25,320 nt of DNA from Salpingoeca rosetta (lineage: Eukaryota; Opisthokonta; Choanoflagellata; Craspedida; Salpingoecidae): assembly GCF_000188695.1 (NCBI RefSeq), contig NW_004754928.1:28528-53847 (forward strand), in the 5' to 3' direction. Below, piece by piece: positions 1,264 to 20,903 of this stretch. Position 1 is the first letter of the stretch; the number at the start of each line of letters is the position of its first letter. The translations under genes were made by a program, and so were the position numbers. Below the pieces are notes generated by a model, which worked only from the letters and a program-made list of their open reading frames with translations, made no database searches and was not told the DNA's origin.

Positions 1264-4762
<3,499 letters not shown>

Positions 4763-5456
4763 TGGCGTTGCGTACGACGCCGCACAAGGCCCAATCGCCA
4801 CGGCCTGCTGTGGAGCTGTCTCGGCAGTGCCGTGGCCGCTGCCGCTGTTGTGGGCTGGGCGTGTCTCTGTGGTTTGGTGGCCCGCCTTGCTTCTGTCGAC
4901 GTTGTCGTTGTTCTCGTGGGTGTTTGTTGTTGCTGGTGCGGAGGCGGACGTTGGGGACGATGTCGCGGATGAAAGGGATGAGGATGTTGAAAGAAGATGT
5001 GTTGACTTGCCGCGTTCTGTCGTATCGAGAGCAGACCAGGGTGCGATGACGTGAGCCGGGGTACATGAGCCAACGTGCGAGTCAGAAGACTTGAAATGTG
5101 ACGGGCGCGTGAAACTATCACTCCACAACCGACAGATGGACAAGGGTAGCGTCGCTATGTGTCGACTACACAAAACCCGCGGCAAGGCATGAAAGAGTGT
5201 GCAAAAGGTGCAGTGCAGTTGGTTCAAGCCAGCAGCCACAAGTGCTGGCTTGAGCACGCAAGGCGCCCAGTCGCCTTCACCACACGTGCCATGGCGAGCT
5301 CAAGCAGGAAACCTCACCTTCAAACATTATCCCTGCGCTGAGCAGCAATGAGAAAGCAAAGGCAGGAGGGTACGAATGCTGTTCGTGAAGGATAAACTCT
5401 GTCGATACACGTGAGACAACCAAGGCATGCAGATATATGAGTAAGGGTGAATACAT

Positions 5457-6207: not shown

Positions 6208-8715
6208 ATGATGGTCGCGGTCGTCGTGCTGGCAGTGGTGATGTTGGCAGTGGTGGTGGCGCAACGTGGAGGTGTAGTTGCGACGGCTGCAAGTACGACT
6301 GCCACGGAGGCTGCAACCGTAGCAAACGAGAAAGAGAATCGTGCGCACAGGAATGCATACCATGGGCTGACCAAGGAAGAAGAGAAGTTGTTGAGGTTGC
6401 ATGGACTGCGACGCTCCTCGTCCACAGGCATCCCCATTGACACCAATGGCTACCTTCTCTATTGCCCTTGCATGGGCCGCTTCGGCAACCAGGTGTGCTC
6501 TTGTCACAAAGGGGGTGGGTGAGTTGAGTTGCTGTGTGTCTGTGTGCGTGTGCTTGTTAGCGATTGTGTTTCTGGTTCTGTGTCTGGGTCTGTGTCTGTG
6601 TCTGTGTGCGTGTGTTTGTTTGCGATTGTGTTTCTGGTTCTATGTGTGGCTCTGTGTCTGTGTCTGTGTGCGTGTGTTTGTTTGCGAGTGTGCTTCTCGT
6701 TCTGTGTCTCTGTGTCTGGTGCTGTGTCTGTGGATGTGCGTGTTCCTGTGCGTGCGCCAACCCTGCCATTCACTGACATTGCATACCTTGGTTCCTTGTT
6801 GTGCTCCCTGACCATGACCTGCCAACCGCGCTTCATCACAGGCCGCGCACCTCATTGGCACGTTGTCAAAAGCAAAAGAGGTGAACAGGACACTCGTCGT
6901 GCCGCCATTTATCACTTACTCGCAGCGGCCCATTGGCTTGATCCCCTACACCAGCTACTTTGACCTGGCGTGAGTACACTTGATTCAAACACTCACAATG
7001 GTTGGTCCCGTCTGCGCTACTCGCCATTCCGTCGCCATTGGTCATGCTGTGCCCCTCTCCTCCTCCTTCACCAACATTACCCTCTTCACCAAACACAAAC
7101 ACCACCACCACCACCACCACCCTGCTCATCATCCCACGCTGCGCTGCCCCCTTGCGTTGACTGCGCCTCTGCCCATCACAGCACAACCGCCACCGCCACC
7201 TCTTCCTTCTCCTCCTCCTCCTCCTCCTCCTTCTTGTTTCCCCTCTTCTGTGCTGCCTCCCACAACACAAACTCATCACACCAACGCTCCTTCGCTGTCC
7301 ACAGGAAACTGCAAGAGTTCCACCGCGTGCTGCCCATGGAGACGTTCATGCAACTGCTGGCGCCGGAGGTGTGGCCGCCGGCACGCCGCCACATGTACTG
7401 CCCCCAGTTTCCATCCGCACACGGCTCTGATGCCCCCTCTGCAGTGGACTGCCGCACCAAGCAGGGTAACCCATTTGGGCCCTTCTGGGATGCGTTTGGT
7501 GTCGACTTCATCTCCGATCGAGCAGTTCCCCCGCACAGCGCAGACTGGGCAACAGCCCTGCCACCAAAGTCGCACCTGGTTGTGTCGCTGCGGGGTGCCC
7601 CTGCCCCCTTTCCCGAACGCCCCGAGCACAGATACATTGCGCAGTACATTGAGTGGAATGAAGAGGTGCATGCGAGCGTGGATGCGTGGATGATGCAGCA
7701 CCTGCAGCGGCCCGTTGTTGCGGCCCATCTGCGTGCTGGCGGTGACTGGCGTAACGCTTGCGCACGCGCGGCGGACACTATGCAAGAGTTTATGGCCAGC
7801 CCGCAATGCCCACACACCGGACCCATCACACAGGTCAATGAGTGCTCTGTGTGTCTGTGTGTGCGTGTCTGTGTGTCTGTGTCTGTGTCTGTGTGTCTTT
7901 GTATCTGTCTGTGTGTGTCTGTGTGTGTGTCTGTGTCTGTGTGTGTGCGTCAGTTTGTGTGTATGTTATTCTGTCTGTGTCCGTGTCTTTATGTCCATAC
8001 TCTGTCCCTCTGTTTCTGCGTCCCTCTGTTTCTGTGTCCCTCTGCCTGTCTGACTAACTGCCAGTGCGTGTGTCCGAGCGACGGGCATTCCTGTGCCTCT
8101 TGTCTCTGCCTCTACCTCTAACATATGATGTCGTTTTCCCTCATCATGGCTTGGCATGTTTGCAGGCCATGTGCCTGCCGACTGCGGAAGAGGCTGCGGC
8201 CAAGATTGCCGAAGAGGTGGTGAGGCAGGATGCGCGCTCTGTCTTCATTGCCACAGACAACTCTCATTACACCAAGCGCGTCGCTGCTATTGTCGAACAC
8301 CTTGTGTAAGACAAACGGCAGCCCATGGCTGACGCTGAGAGGGGGATGTGTCTCTGTGTGTCTGTGTGTGTGTGTGTGTGTGTATGCATGTGTGTGTGCG
8401 TCAGTGTGTGTGTGTGTATGCATGTGTGTGTGTGTTTCTTGTTTGCATGTGGTGCCGGTCATCTTACTGTGCTTCCAACGCACGTGTGCTCCCCCACTCT
8501 CTGACATTGACTTGCTCCCACCCACCCGCACAAATGTGTTCCCCCATGCAGCGATGCGCGTGTGGTGACGGCAGCCAAAGGATTCATGCACGACCTTGCT
8601 GTCCTGACAAAGTCGGACTTCTTCATCGGCAACTGCGTGAGCTCGTTTACCTCCTTTGTCACCCGGTACCGCCAAACCCGTGACCACCTCCCCATGACCT
8701 TCTTTGGACTCGACC

Positions 8716-8762
<47 letters not shown>

Positions 8763-8786
8763 GCCCACGACCCAACGGAATTTTGA
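6208..8786 (+). CDS. POFUT1: GDP-fucose protein O-fucosyltransferase 1 (POFUT1)
   Basis: POFUT1 is an ER-lumen enzyme that transfers fucose from GDP-fucose to Ser/Thr of folded EGF repeats at C2-x4-(S/T)-C3. Five exons: 6208-6492, 6842-6969, 7305-7833, 8166-8305 and 8552-8786. All introns are GT..AG and the phases agree, giving 438 aa; the human enzyme is about 390. Tandem ATGs at 6208 and 6211 begin a hydrophobic signal peptide. Recognisable family landmarks: [14 protein letters not shown] at the end of exon 1, a conserved N-glycosylation site NRT (N110) before [14 protein letters not shown] [25 protein letters not shown] (residues 279-290; R281 aligns with the catalytic Arg of human HLRIGSDW), FMASPQC, and [12 protein letters not shown] near the C-terminus. 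Oddities: 16 Gln codons (8715-8762) lie between the FFGLD end of the fold and the C-terminus, which finishes in PTEF instead of an RDEF/HDEL-like ER-retrieval signal. Introns 1, 3 and 4 are TG-rich. The next gene encodes many EGF repeats with the target consensus. Confidence 0.95.
8715..8762 (+). repeat. (CAA)16 tract at POFUT1 C-terminus
   Basis: Sixteen CAA codons lie just after the conserved FFGLD end of the fucosyltransferase fold, leaving only AHDPTEF before the stop. Confidence 0.95.
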
Positions 8787-9338
8787 CTTTGCCGTGGTGT
8801 CCTCTCGCCAAAGTCATTTTTGACATGGGCTTTGGCTTGAAAATTTGTGCATATTTTCAGTAAATCGTACGTAAGCGTTCCGATGCACACTCCTTCCTGC
8901 GTGCCACAAACGCCAACGCCACCACGAACAGACAGCCCACAGCAGAATGCGCTCAACAACAACACTGACACACAACAGGCAGCTGCGGCACATGCCTTCC
9001 TCCGTGTCGCGCATGCCAACTGTGGAAATGGAACAACCAACGCATGCCTTAGCTTCACAACAAGAAAACTTATGCCTGGCGGGATGTGCCGCCGTCTTGA
9101 GCGAGCCCTAAGCGAGCCTCGCAAACCATTTTCCTTTGCCTTTTCACCTCCCTGATCACCAGCAACCACCAACAACCACACTCGCCTCGAGTGCAAGCAC
9201 GACGACTCTCTCGCTTCATCCAGATCCATCCAGCACTTGAACTAACACCAAAGGCAGTCCAGCTGGCTTCAAGGAGAACGCCCGGCACACCCTAGATCAC
9301 ATCACACGCCCACAACAGACCTCGCTTGTGGCCGAGAG
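8787..9338 (+). other. POFUT1 3' region and upstream region of EGF receptor gene
   Basis: The 552 bp between the POFUT1 stop and the next ATG must hold one 3' UTR and one promoter/5' UTR. An A/T-rich island lies at about 8810-8875. I saw no open frame with coding character and no clear TATA box. Confidence 0.5.
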
Positions 9339-10217
9339 ATGGCTGGTGCGGCCACCGCAGCCACAGCAGTGCTGCTGGCACTGCTACTGGCCTCCCCAAA
9401 CGCACACGCAGGCGATTGGGAATGCCCGACTTACTCCGCCGTTGACAACTTCGAAGTCTCTTCCTACTCCAACAACGACGGCAACTTCAACTGGAACGGC
9501 CCTTGGGTCGAAGAGGACCCAAACGGCGGCGGCGTGACCTCCGGCAGGGTTCGCATCGAGAACGGCGATCTCCGCCTCGACGACATCGGCAGCACCCGCC
9601 AGCGCATCGCTGCCACGCGCTCTGTTGATCTCAGCAGCGCCGACCACAGCGCCACGCTCCAGCTGGAGTACCACACCGTCGGCGACGTCGAACGCACAGA
9701 CGAGTTTGTCATTGAAGTGTCAAAGGACGGCAATAGCTTTGTGGCCCTGGACACCATCAGCGCTACCTCCTGCCGCGACAACAAGCAATCCCGCATCTAC
9801 ACCATCTCCAAGTACGCGTCCCGCCACACCACCATCCGCATCCGCATCAAGGACGGCTTCCGTGGCCGCGACGAAGGCATCATCATCGACTGGATTGCCG
9901 TCACCTTCTCCTCGTGCAGCCCCTATTCATCCACAACCACAACACGGGCAGCCACAACCACCACCACCAAGGCACGCACCACGACCACGACACGGGCACC
10001 CACCACCACCACGACACGCGCTCCCACCACGACCACGACACGCGCTCCCACCACGACCACGACAGAGCGGGCCACGACAACGGCAGGCGGACCATGCGAT
10101 CCTAACCCGTGCCAGAACGGCGGCACCTGTGAGGTGTACTGGTGGAAGTACTACAAGTGCTACTGCCCAGACGGCTTCCGTGGCTCAAACTGCGAGGAGC
10201 AGGTGACAACCACATAA
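9339..10217 (+). CDS. Giant EGF/SUEL-lectin surface protein, 5' part (before the gap)
   Basis: The ATG at 9339 has purine at -3 and G at +4, and starts a signal peptide (residues 1-24, likely cut after NAHA). Residues about 25-190 form an extracellular domain with a beta-sandwich look. It contains DEFVIEVSKDGNSF and ends in IIIDWIAVTFSSC; this resembles MAM/jelly-roll-type modules of secreted proteins (tentative). A Thr-rich linker (about 192-248) repeats TTTTTRAP. One EGF follows, residues 253-286, with CDPNPC, CQNGGTC and CYC. Its C2-x4-T-C3 matches the O-fucose consensus. The frame reaches TAA at 10215-10217, just 3 bp before the scaffold gap. This could be a real stop, a sequencing error, or intron sequence, since CAG|GTGACA at 10200-10208 is a plausible donor. 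The same-strand EGF array beyond the gap is almost certainly the same gene. Confidence 0.8.
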   Translation: MAGAATAATAVLLALLLASPNAHAGDWECPTYSAVDNFEVSSYSNNDGNFNWNGPWVEEDPNGGGVTSGRVRIENGDLRLDDIGSTRQRIAATRSVDLSSADHSATLQLEYHTVGDVERTDEFVIEVSKDGNSFVALDTISATSCRDNKQSRIYTISKYASRHTTIRIRIKDGFRGRDEGIIIDWIAVTFSSCSPYSSTTTTRAATTTTTKARTTTTTRAPTTTTTRAPTTTTTRAPTTTTTERATTTAGGPCDPNPCQNGGTCEVYWWKYYKCYCPDGFRGSNCEEQVTTT

Positions 10218-10220
10218 CAC

Positions 10221-10320
10221 NNNNNNNNNNNNNNNNNNNNNNNNNNNNNNNNNNNNNNNNNNNNNNNNNNNNNNNNNNNNNNNNNNNNNNNNNNNNNNNN
10301 NNNNNNNNNNNNNNNNNNNN
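10221..10320. other. Assembly gap (100 N)
   Basis: Exactly 100 N bases, the usual placeholder for a gap of unknown size. The coding frame before the gap and the frame after it differ by a non-multiple of three across the Ns, so 100 is not the real length unless an intron lies within. The gap sits at the start of a near-identical 159-bp array, where assemblers collapse repeats. Confidence 0.95.
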
Positions 10321-13300
10321 CAGCAACCCGTGCCTGAACGGCGGCACGTGCAAGTCCAAGGACCACGGCCGGGACTACAAGTGCTACTGCCCCCACGGGT
10401 ACAAGGGCGAGCGCTGCGAGATCAACCGCTACACCACCACGCCCTCGCGCCCCACCACCACGGAGAACGACATCTGCGACAGCAACCCATGCCTGAACGG
10501 CGGCACGTGCAAGTCCAAGGACCACGGCCGGGACTACAAGTGCTACTGCCCCCACGGGTACAAGGGCGAGCGCTGCGAGATCAACCGCTACACCACCACG
10601 CCCTCGCGCCCCACCACCACGGAGAACGACATCTGCGACACCAACCCGTGACTGAACGGCGGCACGTGCAAAGTCCAAAGGACCACGGCCGGGACTACAA
10701 GTGCTACTGCCCCCACGGTACAAGGGCCGAGCGCTGCGAGATCAATCCGCTACACCACCACGTCCTCGCGACCCACCAGCACGGAGAACGACATCTGCGA
10801 CACCAACCCATGCCTGAACGGCGGCACGTGCAAGTCCAAGGACCACGGCCGGGACTACAAGTGCTACTGCCCCCACGGGTACAAGGGCGAGCGCTGCGAG
10901 ATCAACCGCTACACCACCACGCCCTCGCGCCCCACCACCACGGAGAACGACATCTGCGACAGCAACCCATGCCTGAACGGCGGCACGTGCAAGTCCAAGG
11001 ACCACGGCCGGGACTACAAGTGCTACTGCCCCCACGGGTACAAGGGCGAGCGCTGCGAGATCAACCGCTACACCACCACGCCCTCGCGCCCCACCACCAC
11101 GGAGAACGACATCTGCGACACCAACCCGTGCCTGAACGGCGGCACGTGCAAGTCCAAGGACCACGGCCGGGACTACAAGTGCTACTGCCCCCACGGGTAC
11201 AAGGGCGAGCGCTGCGAGATCAACCGCTACACCACCACGCCCTCGCGCCCCAGCACCACGGAGAACGACATCTGCGACAGCAACCCATGCCTGAACGGCG
11301 GCACGTGCAAGTCCAAGGACCACGGCCGGGACTACAAGTGCTACTGCCCCCACGGGTACAAGGGCGAGCGCTGCGAGATCAACCGCTACACCACCACGCC
11401 CTCGCGCCCCACCACCACGGAGAACGACATCTGCGACACCAACCCGTGCCTGAACGGCGGCACGTGCAAGTCCAAGGACCACGGCCGGGACTACAAGTGC
11501 TACTGCCCCCACGGGTACAAGGGCGAGCGCTGCGAGATCAACCGCTACACCACCACGCCCTCGCGCCCCACCACCACGGAGAACGACATCTGCGACACCA
11601 ACCCGTGCCTGAACGGCGGCACGTGCAAGTCCAAGGACCACGGCCGGGACTACAAGTGCTACTGCCCCCACGGGTACAAGGGCGAGCGCTGCGAGATCAA
11701 CCGCTACACCACCACGCCCTCGCGCCCCACCACCACGGAGAACGACATCTGCGACACCAACCCGTGCCTGAACGGCGGCACGTGCAAGTCCAAGGACCAC
11801 GGCCGGGACTACAAGTGCTACTGCCCCCACGGGTACAAGGGCGAGCGCTGCGAGATCAACCGCTACACCACCACGCCCTCGCGCCCCACCACCACGGAGA
11901 ACGACATCTGCGACACCAACCCGTGCCTGAACGGCGGCACGTGCAAGTCCAAGGACCACGGCCGGGACTACAAGTGCTACTGCCCCCACGGGTACAAGGG
12001 CGAGCGCTGCGAGATCAACCGCTACACCACCACGCCCTCGCGCCCCACCACCACGGAGAACGACATCTGCGACACCAACCCGTGCCTGAACGGCGGCACG
12101 TGCAAGTCCAAGGACCACGGCCGGGACTACAAGTGCTACTGCCCCCACGGGTACAAGGGCGAGCGCTGCGAGATCAACCGCTACACCACCACGCCCTCGC
12201 GCCCCACCACCACGGAGAACGACATCTGCGACACCAACCCATGCCTGAACGGCGGCACGTGCAAGTCCAAGGACCACGGCCGGGACTACAAGTGCTACTG
12301 CCCCCACGGGTACAAGGGCGAGCGCTGCGAGATCAACCGCTACACCACCACGCCCTCGCGCCCCACCACCACGGAGAACGACATCTGCGACAGCAACCCA
12401 TGCCTGAACGGCGGCACGTGCAAGTCCAAGGACCACGGCCGGGACTACAAGTGCTACTGCCCCCACGGGTACAAGGGCGAGCGCTGCGAGATCAACCGCT
12501 ACAGCACCACGCCCTCGCGCCCCACCATCACGGAGATCGACATCTGCGACAGCAACCCATGCCTGAACGGCGGCACGTGCAAGTCCAAGGACCACGGCCG
12601 GGACTACAAGTGCTACTGCCCCCACGGGTACAAGGGCGAGCGCTGCGAGATCAACCGCTACACCACCACGCCCTCGCGCCCCACCACCACGGAGAACGAC
12701 ATCTGCGACACCAACCCGTGCCTGAACGGCGGCACGTGCAAGTCCAAGGACCACGGCCGGGACTACAAGTGCTACTGCCCCCACGGGTACAAGGGCGAGC
12801 GCTGCGAGATCAACCGCTACACCACCACGCCCTCGCGCCCCACCACCACGGAGAACGACATCTGCGACACCAACCCGTGCCTGAACGGCGGCACGTGCAA
12901 GTCCAAGGACCACGGCCGGGACTACAAGTGCTACTGCCCCCACGGGTACAAGGGCGAGCGCTGCGAGATCAACCGCTACACCACCACGCCCTCGCGCCCC
13001 ACCACCACGGAGAACGACATCTGCGACACCAACCCATGCCTGAACGGCGGCACGTGCAAGTCCAAGGACCACGGCCGGGACTACAAGTGCTACTGCCCCC
13101 ACGGGTACAAGGGCGAGCGCTGCGAGATCAACCGCTACACCACCACGCCCTCGCGCCCCACCACCACGGAGAACGACATCTGCGACAGCAACCCATGCCT
13201 GAACGGCGGCACGTGCAAGTCCAAGGACCACGGCCGGGACTACAAGTGCTACTGCCCCCACGGGTACAAGGGCGAGCGCTGCGAGATCAACCGCTACACC

Positions 13301-13504
13301 ACCACGCCCTCGCGCCCCACCACCACGGAGAACGACATCTGCGACACCAACCCGTGCCTGAACGGCGGCACGTGCAAGTCCAAGGACCACGGCCGGGACT
13401 ACAAGTGCTACTGCCCACACGGGTACAAGGGCGAGCGCTGCGAGATCAACCGCTACACCACCACGCCCTCGCGCCCCACCACTACGCGTGCACCCCCAAC
13501 CACT
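10321..13504 (+). repeat. Tandem array of 20 near-identical 159-bp EGF units
   Basis: Units begin (Ser/Thr codon after CD) at 10322, 10481, 10640, 10802, 10961 and then every 159 bp to 13346. The third unit is 162 bp. Each encodes one EGF with spacing C-x4-C-x5-C-x10-C-x-C-x8-C, plus a RYTTTPSRPTTTENDI linker. Apart from the damaged third unit, differences are a handful of substitutions: AGC/ACC for Ser/Thr, CCA/CCG for the next Pro, and a few linker changes near 11250 and 12504-12540. Such identity at synonymous sites indicates very recent expansion or ongoing homogenisation. The array continues into the gap, so the true copy number is unknown. Confidence 0.97.
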
Positions 13505-16500
13505 ACCGGTGATGGTCCCTGTGAACCAAACCCATGCGAGGTACGTGTGCTGTTTAGCTTTTTCATATGTTTTGTTTTGTGGTCAAATGACTTTAGTTGT
13601 CGTTATGTACCTGTGCTCATGCATTCTTTGATGCAACTTTACAGGGGTGCATGCAACCGCACACATATGTGCGTTACACTCATCTCATTACTCACCCATC
13701 CACGTCGTTTTTGTGTGTTTTCTTTGCGTTTGATAGAATGGCGGTACGTGCGAGGTGTACTGGTGGCTCTTCTTCACGTGCCACTGCCCTGAGGGCGTCT
13801 CTGGACGCACCTGCGAACATGTCGACACCACCGCAACTACACGTGCTCCAACCACTACAACGACAGAGGCGACACCCACACGTCCGCGTACGACCACACC
13901 GCGCACAACAGCTGCAACAACGCCCAGGCCAACCACAACAACGACACCAGCAGCCACGACCCTGCCTGGCTACACATGCTTGAAGGCACGCCAGTGTGAG
14001 GCAGCTCCGCCAGGCGAGAAGTACTGCAACACGGCTGTGCTGCAGCTGAACTGTGGTCCACGGAGAGTCATCAAGGTTGCGCATGCGTTCTACGGTCGTC
14101 GTGACAAGGACGTGTGCCCTGATCCGCTGCTCCGTGACGGCAGCACAGACTTGACAACGTGCTCCATCCAGGCAACTGACCTTGTTGCAGACATTTGCGA
14201 CGGCGAAGAGGCGTGCCGTGTGTCTGCATGCAACTCTGTCTTCTCCGATCCGTGCGTGGACACGTACAAATACCTCGAGGTCGACTACCAGTGTGTCGAT
14301 GAGGACGATGTTGACGAGGAGGTTCGCTGTGGCGAGCACACGACCACACGGGCACCCACCACCACCACTGAGCGTCGCACCACAACAACGGAGCGCCCAA
14401 CTACCACCACTGAGCGTCGCACCACAACAACGGAGCGCCCAACTACCACCACGGAGCGTCGCACCACAACAACTGAGCGTCGCACCACAACAACGGAGCG
14501 CCCAACTACCACTACGGAGCGTCGCACCACAACAACGGAGCGCCCAACTACCACCACTGAGCGTCGCACCACAACAACGGAGCGTCGCACCACAACAACT
14601 GAGCGTCGCACCACAACAACGGAGCGCCCAACTACCACTACGGAGCGTCGCACCACAACAACGGAGCGCCCAACCACCACCACAGAGCGTCGCACTACGA
14701 CAACGGACCGCCCAACTACCACCACGAAGCGTCGCACCAAGACAACGGACCGCCCAACTACCACCACGGAGCGCCCAACAACAACCACGGAGCGTCGTAC
14801 CACGACCACTGAGCGCCCAACTACCACCACGAAGCGTCGCACCAAGACAACGGACCGCCCAACTACCACCACGGAGCGCCCAACAACAACCACGGAGCGT
14901 CGTACCACGACCACTGAGCGCCCAACTACCACAACGGAACGCCGCACCACGACAACGGAACGCCCAACTACCACAACGGACCGCCCAACTACCACCACTG
15001 AGCGTCGCACCACAACAACTGAGCGTCGCACTACGACCACTCCTGGTGGAGATGTGTGTGGTGACTTGACTGCGACACGTGACTTCCTTGGCAACCTCAT
15101 CTTCTGCGGTCAGTCTGGCCATGCGTGCCCAGGTGGAAGCTTCTGTGGCAGCCGCGACTACTGCTGTGACCGCGCGGAGCCATCCACCACCATCACGGAG
15201 CGTCGCACCACGACAACTGAACGCCCAACTACCACAACGGAGCGCCGCACCACGACAACGGAACGCCCAACTACCACAACGGAACGCCGCACCACGACAA
15301 CGGAACGCCCAACTACCACAACGGACCGCCCAACTACCACCACTGAGCGTCGCACCACAACAACTGAGCGTCGCACTACGACCACTCCTGGTGGAGATGT
15401 GTGTGGTGACTTGACTGCGACACGTGACTTCCTTGGCAGCCTCATCTTCTGCGGTCAGTCTGGCCATGCGTGCCCAGGTGGAAGCTTCTGTGGCAGCCGC
15501 GACTACTGCTGTGACCGCGCGGAGCCTTCCACCACGACAACGGAGCGCCAAACTACCACCGCTGAGCGTCGCACCACGACAACAGCGCCTGGCACCCGTA
15601 CAGAAACGCGCACAGAGACTAAGATGGAGACAACGCGTGCACGGACCACCACGGCTCCTCGCACTACAGCGACGGCAACTGCCACCGCCACACACACGCG
15701 CACACGCACCGAGGCCACCACGACAGTCCCTGCCACACACACGCGCACACGCACCGAGGCCACCACCACAGCGACGGCCACGCGTACAGCGACACGCACA
15801 CGCACCGATGCGGCCAGCACCACCACACCCATGTCTCGCATCCACTATGTCACCATCACCTTCCCCGACATTGACTTCTTCAGCGTGTTCACACACCCGT
15901 CCTCTGCGCGTGCGCTTGAGTTTGCGGGCGCCGTGTGGGAGAGGCTGGTCGAGGAGGACGTTGCCGGACCCAAGGAGATCCGCACCATCGACGTGTCGCT
16001 CGGTTCGAACGGTATCGACGTGATTGTCGGCGCCATCAACGCCGACGCCGCCGACCGTATTGAGCGCTACGTTGGCGCCCGCGCGTTCTGCATGCCCGTG
16101 TCGGAGGTGCAGATTGTGCTGTGCACGAGCGGTGCGCATCGCCAGCTCACCACCACGCGTGACACGCGCGCAACCACGACGGGCACGTCCGCGCGTCGCT
16201 GGACCACCACCACGACCGTGCGCATCAGCAACGGTGAACGCGTCGGTGCAGACAACAGCAACGGTGGCAACGGTGGCAACGGCGACAGTGGCTCCACGGG
16301 TGACGGGTCCGGGTTCAAGTTCTCCACCACGACCAGCATCATCCTTGGCGTGGGCACCCTCATCATCGCCATCGCTGTGATTGCCGTGCTTGTTGTTCGG
16401 CGCCAGGCCAAGCGACGCGAGGCGCTGCGGTCGGAGCAGTTTGCATTCAGCGACCACCGCCGCCGCAAGTCCAGCATCACCGCCTTTGCGCAGGCCCTGC

Positions 16501-17357
16501 ACTCGATGAGCGCGACAGACGTGTCCACGCCGCCTGCGTACGCCAGCCCGCAGCACAGCGCGCCGCCATCCTCCACAGCACCAACAGAGGTGGAGGTTGC
16601 TCGCATCAACACGGCCCACGCCCACCACGCATACCACCACGCCGACCCCAGCAGCGACGCGTCCAGTGCAACGTACGACCGCGCAACCTACGAGCGGGCC
16701 AGCTCTGCAGGGTATGATCCAATGGCGCAGAGCACAACGGCAGGCGGCATCCGCCTACTGCCTGGTCGCTCCACGCACGGCGATGACGCTGTGGTGGCAG
16801 GGTACACCGCCGCCAGCGCTTCTGGCGACTATGACATTGCAAGCAACCACTATGGATACTCCTCGACGCGTTACGACAACGCAGACCCGTATGCTGTTGC
16901 AGAGCCTGACATGACGGCGCCCGAGCAGGCACACATTCTCTCGCGCCAGCGCAGGTTGTCCCGTGGGAACTTGCTTTCTCCACGCACGAACGCCCTGTAC
17001 ACCCGCAACGCCCCCGAGATTGTTGCTGCGTCCAACGTGACGCGCGCAAACGCGCCGCCGCCACCGCCATTCCCGCTGCACGAGAGCAAGCGCAAGAAGC
17101 GCGTCGTTATCTCGGCTGATGTGCGCGACAACGTGCCGCTCGGTGCACCGGCGAAACCGCCCCGCTCGCGCACGAGCATGGACGAGAGCAGCACGGACGA
17201 CGCAGATGTTGATGCGGAGATGCAGCGGCTGCACCTCGGGGCAGGTCGGCGATCAGAGGAGCACGAGCTCAAGTCGATTCTGTCGCGGGCGCGCGCTGCA
17301 ACACCCACGTCTGCACAACTCCGACACAGGACCCCAACGCCGTCCCTTGATGTCTGA
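10321..17357 (+). CDS. Giant EGF/SUEL-lectin transmembrane protein, main part (after the gap)
   Basis: Two exons, 10321-13540 and 13737-17357, joined in phase 0 across a 196-bp GT..AG intron that splits an EGF after CE. Order of parts: 20 EGF units of 53 residues (10321 to about 13504); a divergent EGF (13523 to about 13820); a Thr/Pro linker; a SUEL-type (D-galactoside-binding lectin) domain at about 13968-14295 with the family signatures AHAFYGR and SDPCVDTYKYLEVDYQC; a long TTTTERR/TTTTERP stalk; two Cys-rich modules (15054-15180 and 15399-15525); a Thr/Arg linker; a globular juxtamembrane domain (about 15835-16125); a TM helix (about 16334-16398) followed by RRQAKRR; and a roughly 320-residue tail. 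The architecture is a single-pass adhesion or signalling receptor with sugar-binding ability, which is inference. One EGF unit (10640-10801) carries an in-frame TGA and five single-base indels. Tail motifs are listed separately. The gene is downstream of POFUT1 on the same strand. Confidence 0.85.
10640..10801 (+). pseudogene. Damaged EGF unit with in-frame stop and indels
   Basis: Compared with the other units, the second Cys codon TGC is TGA (10649-10651). There are four single-base insertions, one single-base deletion and three further substitutions. The indels sum to +3, so the array frame is restored at the next unit. All sister units are nearly perfect, and this one lies about 320 bp from the gap, so poor consensus at a contig end is the leading explanation. 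A genuinely decayed unit is possible. Confidence 0.6.
13541..13736 (+). other. Intron in EGF/SUEL gene
   Basis: GTACGT donor directly after GAG at 13540 and a GATAG acceptor at 13736, phase 0 on both sides. Joining the exons rebuilds a canonical EGF (CEPNPCE/NGGTCEVYWW). It is the only intron visible in about 7 kb of coding sequence, whereas the gene at 18268-22038 has 13 introns. Confidence 0.9.
14337..15045 (+). repeat. Thr-rich mucin-like stalk repeat (TTTTER[R/P])
   Basis: About 230 codons built from a 7-residue (21-bp) unit, usually alternating TTTTERR and TTTTERP to give a 42-bp period. Some units change to TKRR, TKTT or TDRP. Dense Thr with Pro suggests an O-glycosylated extended stalk that holds the SUEL and EGF parts away from the membrane (inference). 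Confidence 0.85.
14900..15528 (+). repeat. 345-bp tandem duplication carrying a Cys-rich module
   Basis: The Thr-rich segment plus the module beginning GGDVCGDLTATRDFLG occurs twice, offset by 345 bp (for example 15041 and 15386). The copies differ by few bases, such as Asn versus Ser in GNLIF/GSLIF. Each module has six Cys, with CPGGSFCGSRDYCC at its end. It looks like a small disulfide knot; I do not recognise a named family with confidence. Confidence 0.8.
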
Positions 17358-18267: not shown

Positions 18268-20903
18268 TTACTCCTTGATGCGCGGGTGGATGCGGTCGCG
18301 TGGGAAGCCCGAGTACTCGAGGAAGCTGACGTACTTCTCCAGGCCGTACAGCTGGCCCTGATCGAAGTCGGCAATCACCTCCGCCTCAAAGTCGTCAAAC
18401 AGCGCGAGGTTGAAGCGGTCCTCCTTGAACTGCTGCTCCAGCCCGTAGCCGTAGAACCGAAACAGGCACTCAAGCCCATACCTGGGGGGGGGGGGATGAT
18501 GGTGAGATAATGGTGGTGAGATAATGATGGTGAGATGAGGGTGGCTGTGCGGAATTGTGGTGGTGATGACGGCCATTTGCACAAAAAGCAGGACTTGCAG
18601 CACGCTTGCAACCGCATAACGACACTTGTACATGGAACATGTGCGACAGCCGTACCGGTGGCCGCCCTCTGCGTCGCGGTGCGCCAGCGCACGGAACTCA
18701 TCGTACATGGCCCTGTGCACACACACACACACATGTGAAGAGTGGAGCGGGTATGAGAGCAAGCCAAAATTGTTGGTCCATCATGAAGGTCTTCCTGTTG
18801 CAGCACACAACGCTACCACTGACTGCTTCACATCACACTGCAACCCATAGCGTGGCAGGAACAGCAGCAGGAACAACAGCAGGAACAGCAACAGCGGCCG
18901 CACGCACGCACTTGATGAAGCAGTCGCGGAGGAGGTACGACCAGAACCGGTACAGCCGCGGCATGGTCCAGTGGTTCGTCTCGTCCTGCTCGCCTCGCAT
19001 GCACCTGGTGCACAGCGCGCAAGTCATCCATGGCACCCACGGTGAGGAAAGAACTTCAATCTCAACGCATGTCGCTTGCACTGTTGCGCGGTGCGGAACA
19101 GAAAACCACACATACGCACCACGTCAACACTCGCAACAGCCACATGTCTGTCTGTGTGTGTGTGTGTATGTGTGTGTGTGTGTGTCTGTGTGTGTGTGTG
19201 TGTCTGTGTGTGTATGTATGTATGTGTGTGTGCTCACTTTTCGTGAAAGGCGGTGTAGGTGTCCTGGTTGAAGCGGACGCCATCAGCAAACACGACCGTC
19301 GACCCGCGGTGCTCGTTCTCCTCATCAATGTACCAGCCAACGCCTACAGCAGCACCAAATACACACACACATACATACATACAAGTGTGTAACATGAGCA
19401 TATGATTCCACGAGAACGCATTTCAGTCTCACCTCCTTCTCATGCGTGTCCCGTGACCACCCTCTCATGGCACTGGATGACGATGATGAACACCCCCTCC
19501 CCTTTGTCTGTCTCCTCCCACCTCACCACACCTTGCCATACCACATCCGACAACGCACCCTTCTCTGTAACGGCGTCTGGCGAGTACTTGGTCTTGAACG
19601 TCTGCGACCCCTTGGCGTGCTGCGTTCATTCACAACAAGCGAGCGTTCATTCACAACAAGCGAGTGAGCCGCTCACGATGGCAATGAAAGGGAGAGAGAT
19701 GCATGACACGACAAGGGCGGAGATACGAGCATGTGGAGATCGTGGCAATTGCTGACATGTGCGTTGTACAATGCAACAACAGCGCACACAATGTGCACGA
19801 CACCACAGCACCACTGCTCCCTTACCTTTGGACGCGTAGGCTTGTAGTAACGAAGAGCCTGAGCAGAGGACGGCAATAGTCATCAATCACACATGTTTTC
19901 AAGACGCATCACAAAGAACCGGTAGGAAGCGTGAGAGGGGTGGTGTGTTTACGAACCAACACCACCACAGACAAACAAAGGCATGCACACGTACACACAC
20001 TCAATCACACACAATCACACACAATCACACACAATCACACACAATCACACATCAGCGCGCACACATCACCATCACCATCACCGCCACGTGAATCAGGGCT
20101 GGTGCAGCACCTGTGAGTCCTGGACTTTGTTGAGCGGGGAGCGGCGGCCCGGGCGGGAGCCGGTCGAGTTGGCGCGGCGGTGGCGCCCGCCATTCCCCTG
20201 CGTATTCGCAAACGTCTGCACATGGCCAATATGCAATGAGGTGTTAGGCGGGGTGGGACTGGAGGGGAGAAGAAGGGGGAGGAGAAGAGGTGTCAATGCA
20301 CCTGCAGTTGTCTGCTTGTCTGCCTGCCTGTCTGGCTGAGTAAGGGACAGTCATGTAATCACACAGCTGCGCATGCTAAAGAACGCACCGGTTCCCAGTG
20401 GAGGGAGGAGGGTGACTCTGAGCGCTTGGAGGCGTTGGAGACGCGGCGATACGGGCTTGCCCGGTCAGCCTGGTGAGGGGAGGAACAAGTAACAAGGTGG
20501 GCAGTGTCATCAAAAAAGCACAAGTGAGACAAGAGTGCAGATCGGAGAGAACAGATACACAAGCTGCACGAACAGATAAACAAGCTGCACTGATGAGCCA
20601 AAGCACAATACACGTACGCTCATGTGTGCGCGGTCGTAGACGATGCGGAGGAGGTTGATGCCGCTGGCCGACAGCTGGTCCTCAGGATACGCGCGACGCC
20701 TGACGTGTGGTAGTGGTGGTAATCGTGGTGGGCGATGGTGAGTATGATGATGGCCATGATGGTGGTGACCGGGTTATTTGTGAAGGTCGACTGGGGCGAC
20801 TGTGGGGCGGTGGCGTTTGCACAAGAGCTGCATGGTTCATGAAGCTTACGCTGCTGGCTGTGGATCGTCGTCGAGGCAGCCGTCATCCTCAATGGGACCG
20901 TCT

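Follow-up and report, generated by a model that had tools for sequence, protein, structure and literature searches.

The one POFUT1 gene found in Salpingoeca rosetta lies beside the gene of one of its many probable substrates, a protein with an EGF array

The genome of the choanoflagellate Salpingoeca rosetta (54.38 Mb in 49 contigs) was analyzed around a window of 25,320 nucleotides (contig C6:28528-53847), in which a gene for GDP-fucose protein O-fucosyltransferase 1 (POFUT1) is followed by a gene encoding a long array of EGF domains. Unless a contig is named, all the positions below are those of the window. The translated microbial-rhodopsin locus of this genome (L007) agrees with the phosphodiesterase chain 7d7q, which is the rhodopsin-phosphodiesterase of S. 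rosetta; read by eye, the alignment (residues 110-456) shows no mismatch over 110-455. Our analysis indicates that this is probably an ordinary POFUT1 standing beside one of many likely substrates, that the array probably results from recent tandem amplification or homogenization, and that the adjacency of both genes is most likely coincidental. The one POFUT1 found in S. rosetta would act in the secretory pathway and fucosylate those folded EGF domains, throughout the genome, that carry C2-x4-[S/T]-C3, and the neighboring surface protein, which combines the EGF array with a SUEL lectin domain, would be one probable substrate, perhaps the richest in sites. The consensus repeated in this protein would arise from the amplification or homogenization of one canonical EGF unit.

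The POFUT1 gene

The enzyme gene is made of five exons (6208-6492, 6842-6969, 7305-7833, 8166-8305 and 8552-8786), the ends of which were set by eye at GT-AG sites, and the joined exons form one open frame of 438 residues. The protein was compared with Pfam and matched PF10250 with 196.5 bits over profile positions 1-324 of 326. In a comparison with PDB sequences, four matches were obtained at E <= 0.001, every one of them named POFUT1 (5ux6, 5kxq, 5kxh and 3zy2, E 1.6e-84 to 2.4e-63), and POFUT2 was not among them; the alignment with 5ux6 spans residues 78-418. These four structures are presumably those of the human, mouse and C. elegans enzymes. The stretches GRFGNQ, HLRxGxDWxNAC and FMASPQC are conserved, and the one corresponding to the HLR motif aligns with GIHLRIGSDWKNACA in the PDB sequence comparison. 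We take R240 of animal POFUT1 to be placed in this catalytic-site motif. The full POFUT1 gene that a first-pass annotation of this DNA had announced is thus confirmed. Judged from its sequence, the enzyme is a POFUT1 (GT65) and stands nearer to this family than to POFUT2; it would have O-fucosyltransferase activity on folded EGF domains. The whole-genome search with PF10250 matched this gene only (in two of its exons); no second PF10250 gene, and hence no POFUT2 candidate, was found in that search.

The EGF array of the neighboring gene

As the first-pass annotation had stated, an EGF-array gene follows on the same strand, its ATG at 9339 being 552 bp past the POFUT1 stop. Its own stop codon ends at 17357, so that the extent first given for the locus (6208..13820) holds at its start and falls short at its end. 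The domain order is signal peptide, jelly-roll-like domain, Thr-rich linker, EGF, assembly gap, EGF array, EGF, SUEL lectin domain, Thr-rich stalk, two Cys-rich modules, hydrophobic segment and Tyr-containing tail; the product would be a single-pass protein located at the cell surface. Twenty-one readable EGF domains carry C2-x4-T-C3 (one before the gap, 19 in the array and one after it) and are identical to the 21 PF00008 matches of the gene. At least 22 had been claimed; the consensus was correctly read (CQNGGTC, CLNGGTC and CENGGTC), and the count has to be lowered, the array having 19 readable copies and not 20. These domains conform to the POFUT1 consensus on EGF, given as C2-x4-[S/T]-C3 (PMC11990869), and are putative sites of O-fucosylation.

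The 17 full-length inner copies of the array differ by 1.5 of 159 bases on average (about 99% identity), and no difference at all is seen in 34 of their 136 pairs. The same site is present in all 19 readable copies and, the copies being near-identical, the array has to be counted as one event and not as 20 observations. Compared with the whole genome, the array unit scores 107-120 bits inside the EGF gene, and no match outside this gene exceeds 36.4 bits. The repeated consensus is, as far as these alignments tell, one EGF unit that was recently amplified or homogenized. The sole recurring amino-acid change in the array concerns the S/T of CD[S/T]NPC, SNPC being present in 7 and TNPC in 12 of the 19 readable copies; in one SNPC copy, the preceding residues are hidden in the gap. 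CDSNPC matches the O-glucose consensus, given as C-x-S-x-(P/A)-C (PMC3675014), and CDTNPC does not.

In the present assembly, no single open frame joins the first part of the EGF gene to the array. An in-frame TAA (10215-10217), omitted in the first-pass annotation, stands 3 bases ahead of the 100-N gap (10221-10320), and the array copy two units past the gap (10637-10798) has 162 bp instead of 159, several indels and, at the C2 codon, a TGA that was also read once by the genome search. Together with the use of Sanger and 454 reads for the published assembly (PMC4054682), these faults would be compatible with a mis-assembly at the gap, in which the N-terminal and EGF part and the array-lectin-transmembrane part would be separate genes, or in which the copy number or order would be wrong. 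We consider such a mis-assembly quite unlikely: the EGF domains on both sides of the array are alike (both NGGTCEVYWW), for which reason the pieces before and after the gap are read as probably one gene, and the faults cluster beside the gap, as low-quality reads would give. Errors at this place would be expected from a Sanger and 454 assembly of a near-identical array, and both the TAA and the broken copy look like sequencing faults.

Candidate O-fucose sites in the genome

The translated genome was searched with PF00008 at E <= 1, which gave 141 EGF matches, 21 in the neighboring gene and 120 elsewhere. C-x4-[S/T]-C was found in 61 of the 120 outside matches and in 28 of their 43 regions; three of the 61 are not genuine C2-C3 (CDADDTC once and CQHLITC twice), giving corrected values of 58/120 and 26/43. 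The count is a mechanical one: some of the regions nearly duplicate each other or belong to a single gene, intron-split EGFs can escape, many matches lie under the cut-off of Pfam, and scores were given to all but 26 of the 176 first-look candidates. With one PF10250 gene and many EGF genes bearing the consensus, a single enzyme would therefore have many genes to serve. The neighbor was first proposed as the dedicated target of the enzyme; its 21 sites agree with a role as substrate, and the exclusivity is unsupported, as 28 of the 43 other regions match too.

The frequency of the motif (61 of the 120 other matches) is also in agreement with another explanation, in which the consensus would merely be canonical EGF sequence, NGGTC being usual in the fold, and the EGF domains of the neighbor would be unfucosylated; the end of POFUT1, described below, is a further point in its favor. 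However, an apparently complete POFUT1 in which GRFGNQ and HLRxGxDW are retained should have some EGF substrate, and we give little credit to this explanation.

Several observations weigh against the reading of an ordinary POFUT1 with a coincidental neighbor. The neighboring gene holds 20 of the 45 exact C-x-NGGT-C sites found genome-wide with a strict codon pattern (2 sites for the reversed-pattern control), the highest number of any locus in the genome. The chance of a candidate locus standing on one side or the other of POFUT1 is about 0.5%, taking 29 loci (the 28 regions and the neighboring gene) among the 11,629 genes reported for S. rosetta (PMC4054682). Finally, the C-terminus of POFUT1 (8710-8786) consists of poly-Q followed by AHDPTEF and ends with PTEF, with no KDEL-like tail. 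Such a tail, which serves retention in the endoplasmic reticulum, is described as a localization feature of mammalian POFUT1 (PMC11990869); it is not counted as defining the family, and its lack makes the residence of the S. rosetta enzyme in this compartment only putative.

The site number and the low a priori chance, together with the 552 bp on one strand, would fit a dedicated and co-regulated enzyme-substrate pair, whose linkage would be kept because the folding, the export or the ligand binding of the receptor depends on POFUT1. We regard this as unlikely. The 0.5% is notable yet post hoc, the pair having been picked after it was sighted, and many enzyme-target pairs could attract notice. 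The average genome per gene is about 4.7 kb (54.38 Mb for 11,629 genes), which makes the spacing unremarkable. Moreover, one POFUT1 gene was found beside many other candidate targets, and the relative of the neighbor's N-terminal domain is unlinked to it. The dedicated pair suggested by the first-pass annotation is thus unsupported, PF10250 being in one gene and C-x4-[S/T]-C in 61 of 120 other EGF matches, and the two genes are probably not co-regulated. The frame next in number of sites (4361 residues, contig C23) has 11 matches in the loci L009 and L010, of which one is spurious. A looser C-x-x-GGT-C pattern was uninformative, with 115 matches genome-wide versus 93 for its reversed control.

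Age of the linkage

The sole relative found of the neighbor's N-terminal domain (33% identity) lies on contig C22 (C22:1246500-1256400), in a gene that also encodes EGF and Receptor L domains and was matched in part by a protein kinase profile (69 of its 258 positions). This is probably a receptor tyrosine kinase gene unlinked to POFUT1, and the genome search gave no PF10250 match on contig C22. Relatively little gene synteny is reported between S. rosetta and M. brevicollis (PMC4054682). Because the array is young or recently homogenized, its unit weak elsewhere, the N-terminal relative unlinked and the synteny with Monosiga low, an ancestral dedicated pair is disfavored by this indirect evidence. 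Among the titles and abstract openings listed for choanoflagellate POFUT1, O-fucosylation, glycosyltransferases and synteny, none describes the present gene pair.

It appears improbable that POFUT1 has been kept in physical and transcriptional linkage with a mucin-EGF-lectin receptor that would be the surface protein of S. rosetta with the highest density of fucosylatable sites. If this were true, O-fucose on EGF arrays would have served a non-Notch receptor, for adhesion or prey recognition, before animals; a conserved linkage would indicate an ancestral POFUT1 client.

Features of the locus

The features of the two genes are collected in Table 1. The N-terminal domain of the EGF gene product was folded without an alignment, and the resulting model is beta-rich and of low confidence (mean predicted local distance difference test score 59.7). 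It gave weak fold matches with the MAM domains of meprin/enteropeptidase and neuropilin, the Eph ligand-binding domain, carbohydrate-binding modules, reelin and others, which we take as a mere hint. The Pfam scan gave no match for the Cys-rich modules.

Table 1. Features of the POFUT1 gene and of the neighboring EGF-array gene, in window positions
Feature	Position	Strand	Basis
POFUT1 gene, 438 residues; hydrophobic N-terminus, HLRxGxDW, C-terminal poly-Q then AHDPTEF	6208..8786	+	PF10250 and POFUT1 structures
Spacer from POFUT1 stop to receptor ATG, 552 bp	8787..9338		sequence
N-terminal domain, all-beta and jelly-roll-like, with signal peptide (picked by eye)	9339..9917	+	C22 relative, model, weak fold matches
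First EGF, CQNGGTC	10095..10190	+	translation, Pfam scan, PF00008
In-frame TAA (10215-10217) and 100-N assembly gap (10221-10320)	10215..10320	+	sequence
Array of 159-bp units (EGF and Thr/Pro linker), 19 readable CLNGGTC copies and one broken	10321..13489	+	sequence
Intron of 196 bp inside the last EGF, after C2-E and before NGGTC	13541..13736	+	translation
Last EGF, second half (CENGGTC once spliced), resembling the first EGF	13737..13814	+	translation, PF00008
SUEL (galactose/rhamnose-binding) lectin domain	14046..14294	+	PF02140, E 3.8e-19
Thr-rich repetitive stalk, Thr 57% of 235 residues	14340..15044	+	sequence
Two near-identical Cys-rich modules	starts 15054 and 15399 (15054-15540)	+	VCGDLTATRDFLG..CGQSGHACPGGSFCGSRDYCCD
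Probable transmembrane segment (hydrophobic stretch)	16335..16397	+	by eye
Tail of 319 residues, 12 Tyr, PPPPPFPLH stretch, stop ending at 17357	16398..17357	+	sequence

On the opposite strand of the window, an exon that matches the LARP1 HEAT repeat region (PF21071, 91 bits) is present at 18268-18777 (-). The open frame at 1859-5299 (-) encodes 1147 residues with long poly-Q runs and a zinc-binding-like motif, GPYRCGRCGQMLKGHTCPY; in the Pfam scan, no family scored above its cut-off for this frame.

Comparison with Notch and other known systems

The diagnostic domains of Notch are given as LNR, EGF and ANK (PMC2770060). No LNR or ANK match was obtained when three pieces of the neighboring gene were scanned with Pfam (10215-10810 lying outside the scan), and its product does not correspond to this definition of a Notch receptor. 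In the whole genome, LNR matches are confined to contigs C7 and C16. One 1789-residue frame (C7:1984800-1986000) has a strong LNR match and two weak EGF matches (20.7 and 16.8 bits, both under Pfam's cut-off), a pairing that resembles the Notch ectodomain. Neither EGF match has S/T ahead of C3 (CLNGGRC and CINGGEC); on these two matches alone, the best-fitting POFUT1 targets would be proteins other than this LNR-EGF protein, the neighbor among them.

O-fut is described as holozoan-specific and the Notch pathway is assigned to metazoans, Monosiga having only a Notch-like gene of weak similarity (Gazave et al. 2009, PMC2770060), and homologues of POFUT1 and POFUT2 are counted in the ancestral opisthokont set (PMC10481521). 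POFUT1 is thus probably older than Notch, and a POFUT1 without Notch is not new. What the S. rosetta genome supplies is a concrete list of candidates for the pre-Notch substrates of POFUT1, in which the neighboring protein, with its 19 readable near-identical EGF copies, would be an unusually easy target for mass spectrometry. As to the related glycosylation enzymes, two GT90 loci (L005 and L006) were found as POGLUT1 candidates; for part of L005, no PDB chain matched at E <= 0.001. The genome search for the Fringe family returned nothing, and such a search does not prove absence.

The S. rosetta enzyme resembles animal POFUT1 (CAZy GT65) in its full PF10250 domain and conserved motifs, and differs from it in ending with poly-Q and AHDPTEF where the KDEL-like tail would stand. 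The probable receptor kinase gene of contig C22, which has a very long unbroken Thr run, shares with the neighbor a related N-terminal domain, a Thr-rich linker and EGF domains including CAQGGTC; it differs by its Receptor L domains, its partial kinase match, the lack of a large EGF array and a contig without PF10250 match. Compared with Notch and other EGF-array receptors, the neighbor is distinguished by the Thr/Pro-rich linker between its EGF domains, its SUEL lectin domain, its near-identical repeats and the lack of an LNR or ANK match, whereas it is like them in being probably a single-pass protein with tandem EGF domains that carry C2-x4-T-C3, some copies of which also show the O-glucose-type CDSNPC.

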